Shown in pieces: positions 9,075-44,080 of a stretch of DNA of 64,000 bases (positions are counted from its first letter, which is position 1; the number at the start of each line of letters is the position of its first letter). Source of the stretch: Candidatus Caenarcanales bacterium. GTDB lineage: Bacteria; Cyanobacteriota; Vampirovibrionia; 2-02-FULL-35-15. A model generated the notes under the pieces. It saw only the letters and a program-made list of their open reading frames with translations. It searched no databases and was not told the DNA's origin. The position numbers and the translations under genes are program-made. Location: NCBI GenBank assembly GCA_020050435.1, contig JAGVKQ010000016.1, positions 1 through 64,000 of the forward strand, given 5' to 3'.

Positions 9075-9839
9075 ATGAATAAAATTTTTAATATTGCAGA
9101 AGAAATAATAGAAGAAGCAAGTAAATATCTTTTAAAGAGTCTTCACAGGAAAAAGATTTCATATAAAAGTGGACATTTTAATTTAGTAACTAACATAGAT
9201 AAAGAAGTAGAGAATCTTATTGTAGGGAAGATAAAAAAAAGTTTTCCCACGCATACGATTGTCGCTGAAGAAAGTGGCATTCACAAAAAAGAATCACATC
9301 ATGAATGGTTTATTGACCCTATAGATGGAACTACAAATTTTGCACACAATTATCCATCATTTTGTATCTCAATAGCCTATATGAAAGATAGCGAATTACA
9401 AATAGGACTTGTAAAGAATCCATCTAGTGGAGAGCTCTTTTCAGCAATCAAAAGAAAAGGCGCAAGGCTAAATGGAAAAAAAATATCTGTCTCAAGTATA
9501 AAAAAACTTTCAGAAAGTTTATTAGTTACAGGATTTCCTCAAGAGACAAAAAAATCAAAATTGAGTAATTTTGAAAGATTTAAAAATCTAACATTAAACA
9601 CCCACGGCGTGAGAAGAGCTGGCTCTGCTGCTTTAGATTTATGTAATGTTGCTGCTGGCAGATTAGAAGGTTACTGGGAAGAAAAATTAAGTCCCTGGGA
9701 TGTAGCTGCAGGAGTTCTAATTTTAAAAGAGGCGGGCGGAAAAATTACAAACTACAAGAACGGGAAGTATGATATCTACTCGAAAGAAATCCTGGCAACT
9801 AATGGATTGGTACACAAAGAATTAATGTCATACCTTTAA
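9075..9839 (+). CDS. suhB: Inositol monophosphatase family protein
   Basis: This metal-dependent sugar-phosphate phosphatase has 254 residues. The metal-binding motifs are present: EESG near residue 67, WFIDPIDGTTNFAH near 79, and SPWDVAAGVLILKEAGG near the C-terminus. The family hydrolyses inositol-1-phosphate and related compounds; in cyanobacteria and others some members act on fructose bisphosphate or histidinol phosphate, so the substrate is not certain. Its last 12 bases overlap the end of the convergent queG. Confidence 0.9.
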   Translation: MNKIFNIAEEIIEEASKYLLKSLHRKKISYKSGHFNLVTNIDKEVENLIVGKIKKSFPTHTIVAEESGIHKKESHHEWFIDPIDGTTNFAHNYPSFCISIAYMKDSELQIGLVKNPSSGELFSAIKRKGARLNGKKISVSSIKKLSESLLVTGFPQETKKSKLSNFERFKNLTLNTHGVRRAGSAALDLCNVAAGRLEGYWEEKLSPWDVAAGVLILKEAGGKITNYKNGKYDIYSKEILATNGLVHKELMSYL

Positions 9840-10919
9840 TACATTAAATCTTTCCAAGGCCCATAAAGCATGTTCTTTAATTATTGGATCGTTTTCATTT
9901 TTAGATAGGTTGATCAATTCAGGCAAACACTCTTCAGAATGATTATTCCCTGCAACAATACATGCATTTCTTATTAAGCCTTTTCTTTTTGTTCTCATAA
10001 TTGCAGTATTTCCAAACTTGGACTTAAATTCTTTATCAGATTCTATAGACAAAATATCTTTTAATCTCAAGTAATGTCCCATACCAGATTGAGGTTTAAA
10101 TTCTTCCCAATCAGTTTCTACTATTTTTTTATTATAAGGGCAAATTTCCTGACATAAATCACATCCAAAAATCCAATTACCAATTTTTCCTCTAAGATCA
10201 TTTTCAATACTACCTCTATTTTCAATAGTCAAATAAGAGATGCATAAACGAGAATCCAGAAGTGGCGATTCATGCCGCCCTTGGCGAGCCTCGCCTTCGG
10301 CGGGAATCGCCCCAACAGTTAACGCCTCAGTAGGACAGATATCTATACAGCGCGTGCACTTACCACATGTTCCCTCTTTTTCAGCATCAGACTCAATATC
10401 CAGATTAGAAATGATTTCACAAATAAAAAAATATGATCCAAATGGTTTATTTATTATGAGAGTATTTTTTCCCATAAAACCAAGTCCAGCATTTCGAGAA
10501 AAAGATTTTTCCAGAAGTGGAACAGAATCTGAAAAGCCTTTTGAAATAAAATGATCACCAAATTCTTTTCTTAGTTTTGCTTGGAATAAATTAATTTTAC
10601 TTTTTAAAATGGTGTGATAATCCAGTCCCACAGCATAAGCTGCTACCCTTCCAAAATCCCTCCCTGGATTTTCTGGCGGTTTTGTATAGTAATTAACAAG
10701 AAGGGTTATTATCGATCTTCCTTCGCTTAAGATTTTTGTAGGTTTAGCGTTTATAGGGTCTTCACGCAAAAGATAATTCATATCTGCTGCATAACCTAAG
10801 TCTCTCCACTCTAAGAAATGCTTTTCTGATGTTGGGATATCATTTGCAGAAGTAATACCCACAGCATGAAAGCCAAGATCAAAAGCTATACGTTTAATCA
10901 ATTGTTTAAGATTTTGCAT
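9828..10919 (-). CDS. queG: Epoxyqueuosine reductase, with an in-frame palindromic insertion
   Basis: QueG reduces epoxyqueuosine to queuosine in tRNA, using cobalamin and two 4Fe-4S clusters. The 363-residue protein has the ferredoxin-type clusters CGKCTRCIDICP near residue 185 and CDLCQEICPYN near 255, and a C-terminal HEAT-like helical segment. Between the first cluster and the conserved LDSRLCISYLTIE block there are about 16-17 extra residues (about 203-219, GAIPAEGEARQGRHESP). They are encoded by a GC-rich palindrome of 48 bases (10264-10311) and are not expected from the family. The rest is intact, so the gene is probably functional. Confidence 0.94.
   Translation of the reverse strand: MQNLKQLIKRIAFDLGFHAVGITSANDIPTSEKHFLEWRDLGYAADMNYLLREDPINAKPTKILSEGRSIITLLVNYYTKPPENPGRDFGRVAAYAVGLDYHTILKSKINLFQAKLRKEFGDHFISKGFSDSVPLLEKSFSRNAGLGFMGKNTLIINKPFGSYFFICEIISNLDIESDAEKEGTCGKCTRCIDICPTEALTVGAIPAEGEARQGRHESPLLDSRLCISYLTIENRGSIENDLRGKIGNWIFGCDLCQEICPYNKKIVETDWEEFKPQSGMGHYLRLKDILSIESDKEFKSKFGNTAIMRTKRKGLIRNACIVAGNNHSEECLPELINLSKNENDPIIKEHALWALERFNVLKV
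10264..10311. repeat. 48-base GC-rich nested palindrome inserted in frame in queG
   Basis: The outer arms are GGCGATTC (10264-10271) and GAATCGCC (10304-10311), the middle arms CCGCC (10275-10279) and GGCGG (10299-10303), and the inner arms GGCGAG (10283-10288) and CTCGCC (10290-10295). The length is exactly 16 codons and the reading frame is kept. Base composition is strikingly GC-rich against an AT-rich gene. Confidence 0.85.
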
Positions 10920-12356: not shown

Positions 12357-14227
12357 CTGTTTACAGTCTTCCAAAGATCCTTAACATTTTCCTCATTTTG
12401 TCCCAAAGCTTCAGCAAAATCTTTAAGATCAGATTCCTTTATACTTTTCACACTTCCAAAATGATTCATTAATCTTTTAATCTTAGCTTTTCCAAGCCCT
12501 TCTATTTTTTCTAATTCTGATTCAAAAGTATTTTTAGCTCTAGTATCTCTTTGAAAAGTTATAGCAAATCTGTGAGCCTCATCTCTAACCCTTTGGATAA
12601 GATGTAAGACTTCAGATTTTCTTTCTAATTTAATAGGATTTTTTAGTCCTGGTTTATATATCTCTTCAAATTTCTTAGCAAGGCTAACAATATCAATTTT
12701 ATTTAAATCCAAACCACTTTTATCAAGAGAATCTTTTGCAGCGCTTAACTGCCCCTTTCCGCCATCTATTATTATTAGATTAGGCAAATCCATTTCTTTA
12801 TTAAAATACCTTCTGGATATTACCTCTTTCATTGAAGAAAAATCATCTATCTTACCAGTTGGTAATGACTTGATTTTAAATTTTCTGTAGTTAGATTTCT
12901 GTGGTTTTCCATCCACAAAAACCACCATACTAGCCACAGTTCCAGTTCCACCTAAATGTGAGATGTCAAAACATTCTATGCGTTTGGGGAAATTGTTTAA
13001 TTGCAATTGTTGTTGTAAATCCGTCAGTAGAGACGTTACGCGCAACGTCTCTACGTCTGACATTTCAAGATCAACATTATTTATATTTGAAAGAATTATT
13101 TTTTGCAAAGACAACCTGGCATTTTGTCGTGCCATTTCAATCAATTCTAGCTTTCTGCCTTTTTTAGGACAAGAGATTGAAACTTTTTCTTTTCTATCTG
13201 AAAGCCACTTCTCAATCTGCTCTTTTTCTAAAAGTTCAAACTGTACTAAAATTTCCTTAGGCATATTCTCATCCACTATGCGACTATAATACTGTTTAAC
13301 ACCATCATTAAATGCTTCCACATAATCGGTTTCTTTAGGAATTGAAAGAGGATAAGATTCTATAGCAACAACCTTACCTTCCCTAACAAGCAGTACTTCC
13401 ATAACCATATTCTGCTCATTAAAATCACATGCAAAAATATCCTGAGAAAGTTTCGGATCATCACTTACCACAATTTGTTTTTCTAAAACTTTATTTATTT
13501 TACTTATGACATCTCTATATTTTGCAGCTTTTTCATAATTGAGATTCTTACTAGCTTCATTCATTTGACTTTTTAAATTTTTCAAAACTGCATCATATTT
13601 CCCAAGCAAGAAATCCTCTACCTGATTCACAATTTTGTGATAGTCATCACGTGAAATCAACTCTTGACAGGGACCTGAACAAAGCCCGAGATGGTAATTC
13701 ATACAAGGTCTATCTTTAAAAAGTTGCTTTCTTCTAAGTCTTAATTGAAACCCTTCTTTTAAAATCTTATAAGTCTCCCACATAGCACCAGCATCACTAT
13801 ATGGTCCAAAGAATTTATTTTTTGTTCTGGGATATTTCTTTTTAAATCTAATAACATCTCTAATTGGGAGAACCCTAGGATACTCTTCGTCACGTGTAAT
13901 CATTAACCATGGAAATTTTTTATCGTCTTTTAAAGTCACATTGTATTTAGGCTGATATTTATTTACTAAATTCGCTTCCAGAATAAGTGCTTCATTTTCT
14001 GAGCGAGTAATAACTGTTTTTATTTCTTTAACCTTAGGCATCATAAAATGTAGCTTTTGTCTTTCACTCCATGATTTTTGATTAAAGTATGATCTGACTC
14101 TTGATTTTAGATTTAAAGCTTTACCTATATAAATAACTTGACCTTTTTTATCCAGCATCATATAAATGCCAGAAGTATTAGGAATGTTTTTTATTTGCTC
14201 TTTTAGGCTTGAATCCAGATCTTCCAT
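12353..14227 (-). CDS. uvrC: UvrABC system protein C, with a short in-frame palindromic insertion
   Basis: UvrC makes both incisions in nucleotide excision repair. The 624-residue protein has a GIY-YIG nuclease domain (SGIYMM...VIYIGKA, residues 19-37), a UVR motif (about 210-240), the RNase H-like 3' domain with FDISHLGGTGTVASMVVF and IIDGGKGQL, and a C-terminal helix-hairpin-helix pair (IEGLGKAKIKRLMNHFG). Residues about 392-401 (DVETLRVTSL) are encoded by a perfect palindrome (13027-13054) in the variable linker just before the 3' nuclease domain. All catalytic parts are intact. Confidence 0.96.
   Translation of the reverse strand: MEDLDSSLKEQIKNIPNTSGIYMMLDKKGQVIYIGKALNLKSRVRSYFNQKSWSERQKLHFMMPKVKEIKTVITRSENEALILEANLVNKYQPKYNVTLKDDKKFPWLMITRDEEYPRVLPIRDVIRFKKKYPRTKNKFFGPYSDAGAMWETYKILKEGFQLRLRRKQLFKDRPCMNYHLGLCSGPCQELISRDDYHKIVNQVEDFLLGKYDAVLKNLKSQMNEASKNLNYEKAAKYRDVISKINKVLEKQIVVSDDPKLSQDIFACDFNEQNMVMEVLLVREGKVVAIESYPLSIPKETDYVEAFNDGVKQYYSRIVDENMPKEILVQFELLEKEQIEKWLSDRKEKVSISCPKKGRKLELIEMARQNARLSLQKIILSNINNVDLEMSDVETLRVTSLLTDLQQQLQLNNFPKRIECFDISHLGGTGTVASMVVFVDGKPQKSNYRKFKIKSLPTGKIDDFSSMKEVISRRYFNKEMDLPNLIIIDGGKGQLSAAKDSLDKSGLDLNKIDIVSLAKKFEEIYKPGLKNPIKLERKSEVLHLIQRVRDEAHRFAITFQRDTRAKNTFESELEKIEGLGKAKIKRLMNHFGSVKSIKESDLKDFAEALGQNEENVKDLWKTVNS
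13023..13059. repeat. Perfect palindrome inserted in uvrC
   Basis: GTAGAGACGTT (13027-13037) and AACGTCTCTAC (13044-13054) are perfect 11-base arms with a 6-base loop. GTCAG and CTGAC extend the symmetry outwards with a small bulge. The GTAGAGACGTT...AACGTCTCTAC core is of the type found in many copies in cyanobacterial genomes (known in general; not searched here). Confidence 0.85.
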
Positions 14228-37007: not shown

Positions 37008-38099
37008 GTGATAACCCTAAAAAAGACACCTTTGATTGAATGTCACAAAAAATGTGGAGCCAAACTTGTTGATTTTGCAGGGTTTGAAATGCCTGTTCAA
37101 TATCAAGGAATAATATCTGAACACAATGCAGTAAGAACAAATGCAGGGTTATTTGATGTTTCTCACATGGGTGAATTTATAGTTAGTGGGGAAGAATCAC
37201 AAAAGTTTTTAAATTACTTAGTACCTAATGATGTAGATAAAATTAGTGAGCGTGGACAAGGTTTATACACACAGCTTTGTTATGATAATGGCGGAACCGT
37301 TGATGACTTAATCATATATAACAGAGGTTTTGATTTTCTAGTAGTAGTAAATGCCTCAAATATTGATAAAGACTGGGCTTGGTTTAATAAAAATAAATCT
37401 AGATTTAACGTAGAATTAAGAAATGTTTCTGACAACTTCTCTTTACTTGCCCTGCAAGGACCAAAATCAGAAGAGATTCTAAGCAAGGTTTTAAATATTG
37501 ATTTAACTGTTTTAAAGTCACATAAATACTTTGAGATTAAGAAGTATAATCCACTCTGGATTGCAAGAACAGGCTATACAGGAGAAGATGGCTTTGAAAT
37601 ATTTATAAAAGATGAAAAAGAAGCACAAAAGCTCTGGGATAATTTAATTCAAAATGGAGTCACGCCTTGCGGATTGGGAGCCAGAGATACACTGAGACTT
37701 GAAGCTGCATATCCTCTATATGGTCACGAGCTTGATGATGAGACATCACCTCTTGAAGCAGGACTTGGATGGAGTGTGAAGCTAGATAAAGCATCAGAGT
37801 TCTTAGGAAAATCATCTTTAATAAAGCAAAAGAAAGATGGTTTAAAAAAGAAAATGGTTTGCTTAAAGATAAATGACAAAGTTATTGCAAGACAAGGATA
37901 TAAAGTATTTTCAAAAGAAAATAAAGAGATTGGAATAGTAGCTAGCGGTTCACAAGGACTTACAGTAGGCTATCCAATAGCAACTGCTTACGTAACTCCA
38001 GAAGAGTCTGAGGTTGGAAAAGAACTTTTTGTAAGTATTAGAGATAAGCTGGTATCAGCAACAATAATTAAAAGACCGTTTTATAAGAAATCTACCTGA
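37008..38099 (+). CDS. gcvT: Aminomethyltransferase (glycine cleavage T protein)
   Basis: GcvT transfers the aminomethyl carbon of glycine from the H-protein to tetrahydrofolate. The 363-residue protein has GAKLVDFAGFEMPVQYQGI, LFDVSHMGEF, LALQGPKSEEIL and ARTGYTGEDGFEIF, with the catalytic aspartate in NDVDKI. It starts at GTG seven bases after AAAGGAG. The stop codon overlaps a 28-base palindrome. gcvH and gcvP are not in the window, and no glycine riboswitch is seen in the 90-base leader. Confidence 0.96.
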   Translation: MITLKKTPLIECHKKCGAKLVDFAGFEMPVQYQGIISEHNAVRTNAGLFDVSHMGEFIVSGEESQKFLNYLVPNDVDKISERGQGLYTQLCYDNGGTVDDLIIYNRGFDFLVVVNASNIDKDWAWFNKNKSRFNVELRNVSDNFSLLALQGPKSEEILSKVLNIDLTVLKSHKYFEIKKYNPLWIARTGYTGEDGFEIFIKDEKEAQKLWDNLIQNGVTPCGLGARDTLRLEAAYPLYGHELDDETSPLEAGLGWSVKLDKASEFLGKSSLIKQKKDGLKKKMVCLKINDKVIARQGYKVFSKENKEIGIVASGSQGLTVGYPIATAYVTPEESEVGKELFVSIRDKLVSATIIKRPFYKKST

Positions 38100-38125
38100 A
38101 GGCAGGGGCACGTGCCCCTGCCTTC
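38098..38125. repeat. Perfect 28-base GC-rich palindrome
   Basis: GAAGGCAGGGGCAC (38098-38111) is exactly the reverse complement of 38112-38125. It overlaps the last two bases of the gcvT stop codon and lies between convergent gcvT and frr. No U-tract follows on either side. The GGGGCACG...CGTGCCCC core is of a type common in cyanobacterial genomes. Confidence 0.85.
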
Positions 38126-44003: not shown

Positions 44004-44080
44004 ATGTCATTCTGAAGGAGCAAGGCGACTGAAGAATCTATTAACGTTAATGGATTCTTCGCATTCGCTCAGAATGACAT
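44004..44080. repeat. 77-base inverted repeat, TGTCATTCTGA type
   Basis: ATGTCATTCT (44004-44013) pairs with AGAATGACAT (44071-44080), and GAAGAATC (44031-44038) with GATTCTTC (44053-44060). The element lies in the 205-base spacer between rplI and serA. Elements with TGTCATTCTGAGCGAA and GAAGAATC are known from many unrelated genomes as dispersed palindromes. Confidence 0.8.

Follow-up and report, generated by a model that had tools for sequence, protein, structure and literature searches.

The queG locus

The window, by which we mean the whole stretch of 64,000 nucleotides that was analysed, harbours a queG gene on its minus strand. The encoded epoxyqueuosine reductase has solved homologues (PDB 5d6s/5d08). 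Inside the gene lies a palindrome nested in another one; we refer to the outer palindrome as layer 1 and to the inner 30-mer as layer 2. The features of the locus are:

9828..10919, minus strand: queG, epoxyqueuosine reductase, 363 aa, host gene; frame intact, full-length member of TIGR00276 (308 bits, cut-off 200)
10264..10311, plus strand: 48-bp nested palindrome pointed out in an earlier note on this DNA, comprising layer 2 and most of layer 1
10259..10273, plus strand: layer 1, one arm (GAAGTGGCGATTCAT) of a TGTAGGGGC...GCCCCTACA-type palindrome; relatives have other perfect palindromes at the same codons, and the arms covary
10304..10316, plus strand: layer 1, other arm (GAATCGCCCCAAC); same basis, with solo layer-1 palindromes in the genome and the family
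10274..10303, plus strand: layer 2, putatively mobile 30-bp palindrome GCCGCCCTTGGCGAGCCTCGCCTTCGGCGG; ten additional codons in QueG, with copies in the genome, the family and other phyla

Within queG, the 48-mer has the architecture GGCGATTCAT-[30 bp]-GAATCGCC, and the insert site in the protein is the loop that follows the first Fe-S cluster motif and precedes CISYLTIE. Sequence and fold confirm the nested palindrome at 10264-10311, in frame in the gene. The RNA folds better than shuffled sequences on both strands (z -3.8 and -3.0). The palindrome had been described as far richer in GC than the rest of queG, and this holds, with a GC content of 71% for the 48-mer and 80% for the 30-mer, versus 34% for queG and 32% for the window. 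The number of core matches expected in shuffled windows is zero.

Empty sites in orthologous genes

The earlier note had proposed an alignment of QueG from relatives and a search of the genome for further copies. The extra residues are absent from the QueG of ten relatives of the same family, and other copies are present in the genome. In the relatives G003, G007, G009 and G010, the loop consists of VGA or AGA, four residues and P(L/I)L, and in the window of VGA, fourteen residues and PLL. Removal of positions 10274-10303 leaves VGAIHESPLL, which has the same length as VGALPATPLL of the relatives. The insert had been put at 48 bases or 16 codons; the palindrome does have this length, but the unit that is unique to this species comprises 30 bp (10274-10303), or ten codons.

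A second case is found in a reductase gene (gene names other than queG were read from translations). The copy of G009 reads AGGCAATTCAT[30]GAATTGCCTCA, whereas its orthologue in G005 reads AGGCAATTCATGAATTGCCTCA, a difference of 30 bp with no duplication or loss, between proteins that are 83% identical. PmbA differs from PmbA of G008 by ten codons, as judged by length. The three coding cases (QueG, the reductase and PmbA) agree on a unit of 30 bp. We infer that the direction was a gain of the 30-mer, and not a loss in G005. The ends of the 30-mer share only one base for slippage. A target site duplication of fixed length is typical of a MITE of a classical DDE transposon. Direct repeats of 7 bp were found at 12 of the 72 copies outside arrays (2.4 expected), with no duplication at the orthologous empty site. 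At some non-coding copies, these repeats may represent genuine duplications of the target; the clean coding cases have none.

The probably older palindrome in the QueG loop

Without the 30-mer, the loop DNA of the window reads GGGGCGATTCATGAATCGCCAC, and it is palindromic also in the relatives G007 (GTAGGGGCGTTGCCTGCAACGCCCCTAC), G009 (GTAGGGGCAAGTCGCGACTTGCCCCTAC) and G010 (GGGGCTTACCATGGTAAGCCCC). The layer-1 arms at this site differ between genera, with the pairing kept. Among these four sequences only, both sides have changed in 5 of the 13 pairs, 88.5% of the layer-1 cells pair (35-48% in slid controls), and the covariation score is 0.54 versus 0.14 in shuffled data. The residues encoded by the loop vary (IHES, LPAT, SRDL, YHGK). 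Because the loop of the relatives is palindromic with covarying arms, and its residues are not conserved, layer 1 was most likely present in QueG first and the 30-mer came later. The single 48-bp element of the earlier note is replaced here by two nested elements, in which the flanking 18 bp are a remnant of the older palindrome. QueG loops without layer 1 are only about five residues (~15 bp) shorter, although layer 1 measures 28-30 bp.

Layer 1 has the form GTAGGGGC...GCCCCTAC, with a covarying interior and tags at both ends. A pattern search detected TAGGGGC-N(4-30)-GCCCCTA in 8 of 11 genomes of the family of the window, and related solo layer-1 copies are present in its own genome. Among 42 copies with a 12-base interior there are 34 distinct interiors, mostly perfect or near-perfect palindromes, and the interiors of these 34 covary.

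Other palindromes were found in the window. At 13027-13054, a 28-bp palindrome (GTAGAGACGTTACGCGCAACGTCTCTAC) lies in frame in uvrC on the minus strand and encodes VETLRVTSLL; it resembles layer 1 and appears to be a further GTAG...CTAC element of this type. A second 28-bp palindrome (GAAGGCAGGGGCACGTGCCCCTGCCTTC), at 38098-38125, overlaps a gcvT-like gene at its stop codon and precedes a frr-like gene; the RAYT gene of this genome contains a near relative of it. The AT-rich 30-bp palindrome GAAGAATCTATTAACGTTAATGGATTCTTC at 44031-44060, in the gap that follows a serA-like gene and precedes a rplI-like one, could simply be a terminator-like hairpin.

Copies of the 30-mer in the genome and its relatives

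The 30-mer encodes PAEGEARQGR in QueG, and all its six frames are free of stop codons. Since it is 30 bp long and stop-free, it reads through as ten extra residues. Genome-wide copy counts were obtained by pattern and BLAST searches only. BLAST revealed six matches besides the query in the own genome (E<=4e-5), and the pattern search at least five strict copies and several degenerate ones. PmbA (HPAVGEARQGRQP), ScpB, a small-heat-shock-like protein and a RecJ-like frame contain in-frame copies, as does an epimerase at its C-terminus. Another copy is located between plsX and fabH. The same DNA gives the same peptide in PmbA (as PAVGEARQGR), the epimerase tail and others. The relative G009 possesses in-frame copies in a geranylgeranyl-reductase-like gene and in ftsY. 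The dispersed copies, the exact empty site and the in-frame copies in several genes lend good support to the proposal of a mobile palindrome that tolerates translation.

At some loci two copies are 0.5-3 kb apart, which raised the possibility, not adopted here, that such copies mark the ends of a larger transposon. Copies also occur in series, with two close together at L180:4289-4344 and three back to back, free of spacers, at L130:3954-4041. In two relatives (L222 and L225), ScpB carries IARSEATKQS at its N-terminus, in the same variable tail that holds the 30-mer in the window species; this peptide probably stems from the translation of a palindromic repeat of another family.

A preference for genes was rejected, as 69 of 110 copies, an upper bound because long open frames in GC-rich DNA may be spurious, lie in such frames, versus 72% of random positions, and all six frames are used. 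An assembly or adapter artefact was rejected as well, since the copies come from many independent assemblies and their variable loops keep their non-pairing.

Occurrence across bacteria

Genomes of other species yielded at least 114 stretches that match the strict pattern. Among the matches listed are Patescibacteria, Omnitrophota, Elusimicrobia, Bacteroidetes/Melioribacter, Chlorobiaceae, Deltaproteobacteria, Brocadiia, WOR-3 and Melainabacteria, and the carriers outside the phylum of the window are, among these matches, MAGs from about ten phyla. Within its own phylum, represented by 386 genomes, strict copies are present in five, all belonging to the family of the window. This family includes Candidatus Melainabacteria RIFCSPLOWO2_02_FULL_35_15, with matching flanks at G005 L052 and L099. 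The distribution, with five carriers in the phylum and many phyla outside, shows that the 30-mer is not a general cyanobacterial intergenic repeat; the earlier note had likened the sequence to such repeats.

The search of viral contigs for the 30-mer gave 0 hits, and that of plasmids and phages only weak, chance-like matches; hence neither search revealed a vector. The 30-mer may have crossed between phyla that share groundwater habitats.

Target sites and hairpin structure

The 110 nonredundant copies of the 30-mer have GCCGCC...GGCGG ends and variable flanks, in which G at +1 alone is nearly fixed (106/110). The flanks match each other at a spacing of 7 bp (50% vs 30% shuffled, z=13), and also of 14 and 21 bp. 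This periodicity is due to 29 of the 110 copies, which lie in phase within heptamer arrays. Other copies are located in the tips of unrelated hairpin repeats, with a stem score of >=8 in 7 copies versus 0.2 expected. The 30-mer is also found without layer 1, in heptamer arrays and in other hairpins.

The 30-mer possesses 24 fixed bases and two variable 3-nt triplets. Both triplets are pyrimidine or both purine in 69 of the 110 copies, and therefore do not pair across the hairpin; pairing was found at 23 of 330 triplet positions versus 94 expected. The symmetric 3x3 internal loop is conserved as non-pairing, which suggests that the 30-mer is recognised as a single-stranded hairpin; for REPs and RAYT, recognition of a folded single strand has been reported (PMC3733652).

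Candidate mobilising enzymes

The own genome encodes one RAYT (NF047646, L200:1414-2037), and within its 3.2-kb locus no palindrome similar to the 30-mer was detected. No Y1 transposase was detected in several relatives with copies of the 30-mer, among them G003, which has many. A Y1/RAYT enzyme was rejected as the mobiliser, because its presence does not track copy number in the family.

Two further palindromes were observed at such genes. The RAYT of the own genome is interrupted in frame by another palindrome (L200 1782-1809), and the Y1 transposase frame of G007 has a TGTAGGGGC palindrome beside its conserved part (L203:1471-1499).

Interpretation and alternative explanations

In our reading, with a probability of about 0.83, two small mobile palindromic repeats, one nested in the other, make up the 48-mer, and the 30-mer was inserted in an older palindrome in QueG. 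The common ancestor of several genera would already have had a GTAGGGGC-type palindrome in a tolerant QueG loop. On the branch that led to the species of the window, the 30-bp palindrome (GCCGCCnnnGGCGAGCCTCGCCnnnGGCGG) would then have been inserted at T^GA, one base off the centre of the older palindrome, presumably without target duplication, and would be read through as ten extra QueG residues. The 30-mer would be selfish DNA that is moved in trans as a single-stranded hairpin, possibly by an IS200/RAYT-like HUH enzyme, or by the repair or replication machinery at hairpin tips. QueG with the insert probably stays active.

Another explanation, which we consider unlikely, is that a 60-bp composite (TGT...layer 1 + 30-mer...ACA) is mobile and entered QueG in one step, and that the solo layer-1 palindromes are its deletion products. 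In G009, the geranylgeranyl-reductase-like gene and ftsY carry composites that match each other exactly over about 60 bp, and a third copy is a near variant. As two genes of G009 share these identical 60 bp, the composite may sometimes move whole. Nevertheless, layer 1 stands alone at the same codons in QueG of the relatives and at the reductase site of G005, and the 30-mer is found free of layer 1 in the arrays and hairpins described above.

Even less probable is that the palindrome was made and kept perfect locally by replication template switching (quasi-palindrome correction), with no mobile insertion. Layer-1 arms that differ between genera and still pair, as reflected in the covariation score, are in agreement with it, and so are the covarying distinct interiors and the net gain from layer 1 of only about 15 bp, which is below the length of the palindrome. 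Template switching may well apply to the layer-1 arms, but it cannot explain 24 fixed bases of the 30-mer that are common to unrelated genes and phyla.

Selection in queG for a functional hairpin of the RNA (a terminator, an antisense element or one for mRNA stability) is highly improbable: both strands do fold stably, but Rfam gave no family above threshold, the hairpin lies inside a reading frame, and copies are present in both orientations, all six reading frames and unrelated genes. We give practically no weight to a normal adaptive QueG loop of this lineage, selected at the protein level, for although the frame is intact and loop length varies among relatives, the same peptide comes from the same DNA in unrelated proteins such as PmbA and the epimerase, and in the layer-1 loop the DNA palindrome is conserved and the amino acids are not.

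The nested pair of mobile repeats would be a clean case of non-coding mobile DNA turned into protein sequence twice at one site, in a structurally known enzyme. We propose more tentatively that the 30-bp palindrome is a free-standing element moving horizontally among at least ten phyla, which would land at hairpin tips and heptamer arrays without target duplication and, being stop-free in six frames, could settle in essential genes; the arrays would be the places where it lands or the footprints that it leaves. If this is true, 30 bases common to many phyla of uncultured groundwater bacteria would represent a very small element that spreads horizontally, and few mobile elements with a cross-phylum range would be as small. 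Given the fixed N^G preference at hairpin tips and within heptamer arrays, the movement of tiny repeats and the nature of the arrays become directly testable.

Comparison with known systems

Rickettsia palindromic elements (RPE), to which the earlier note had likened the palindrome, are similar in that a palindrome lies in frame in protein genes, is translated, and is tolerated in conserved proteins. In-frame insertion was found here for QueG, PmbA, ScpB and others, with orthologues that lack the 30-mer. The likeness stands for function, but not for length and family. RPE-1 is a different family, of Rickettsia, with a length of about 100-150 bp. The element described here measures 30 bp and lies within another palindrome, and the two were told apart by length and description.

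Intragenic palindromic repeats are known as REPs and RPEs (PMC3733652), and REPINs are also known within genes (PMC3116915). Similar to the 30-mer, REPs and REPINs are palindromes of 20-40 bp that form hairpins, and their intragenic copies are translated in many species (PMC3733652, PMC3116915). Layer 1 starts with GTAG and has a covarying interior. In GTAG REPs, this tag stands at one end, next to a 6-13 bp stem with covarying members, whereas layer 1 is tagged at both ends. Layer 2 differs from REPs in the lack of a GTAG or CGTC tag in its 110 copies, and from the REPIN/RAYT system in that no copy was seen beside a RAYT.

Comparable heptamer repeats are the STRR arrays of cyanobacteria and repeats such as TAACTGA (PMC4679880). 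Many 30-mers lie in phase inside 7-bp arrays, but here the arrays are the target and not the element. Small dispersed repeats (SDR) are mentioned in PMC3116915.

By description, SDR are the closest match to the 30-mer, being very small hairpins associated with heptamer arrays and nesting. Those of Nostoc and its relatives, reportedly described by Elhai et al. in 2008, are said to measure 21-27 nt and to form hairpins with covariation, located in heptamer tandem arrays and nested in other small elements. Both embedding in heptamers (periodicity of z=13, 29 of 110 copies in arrays) and nesting (of layer 2 within layer 1, and also within other hairpin repeats) were found for the 30-mer. It differs from SDR in its length of 30 bp, its occurrence outside heterocystous cyanobacteria, its in-frame position in genes and its range of about ten phyla among the matches listed. 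The 30-mer core was not found printed in the literature searched. Apparently new are the in-frame nest of two layers, the empty site with its clean difference of 30 bp and the distribution of one 30-mer over many phyla.
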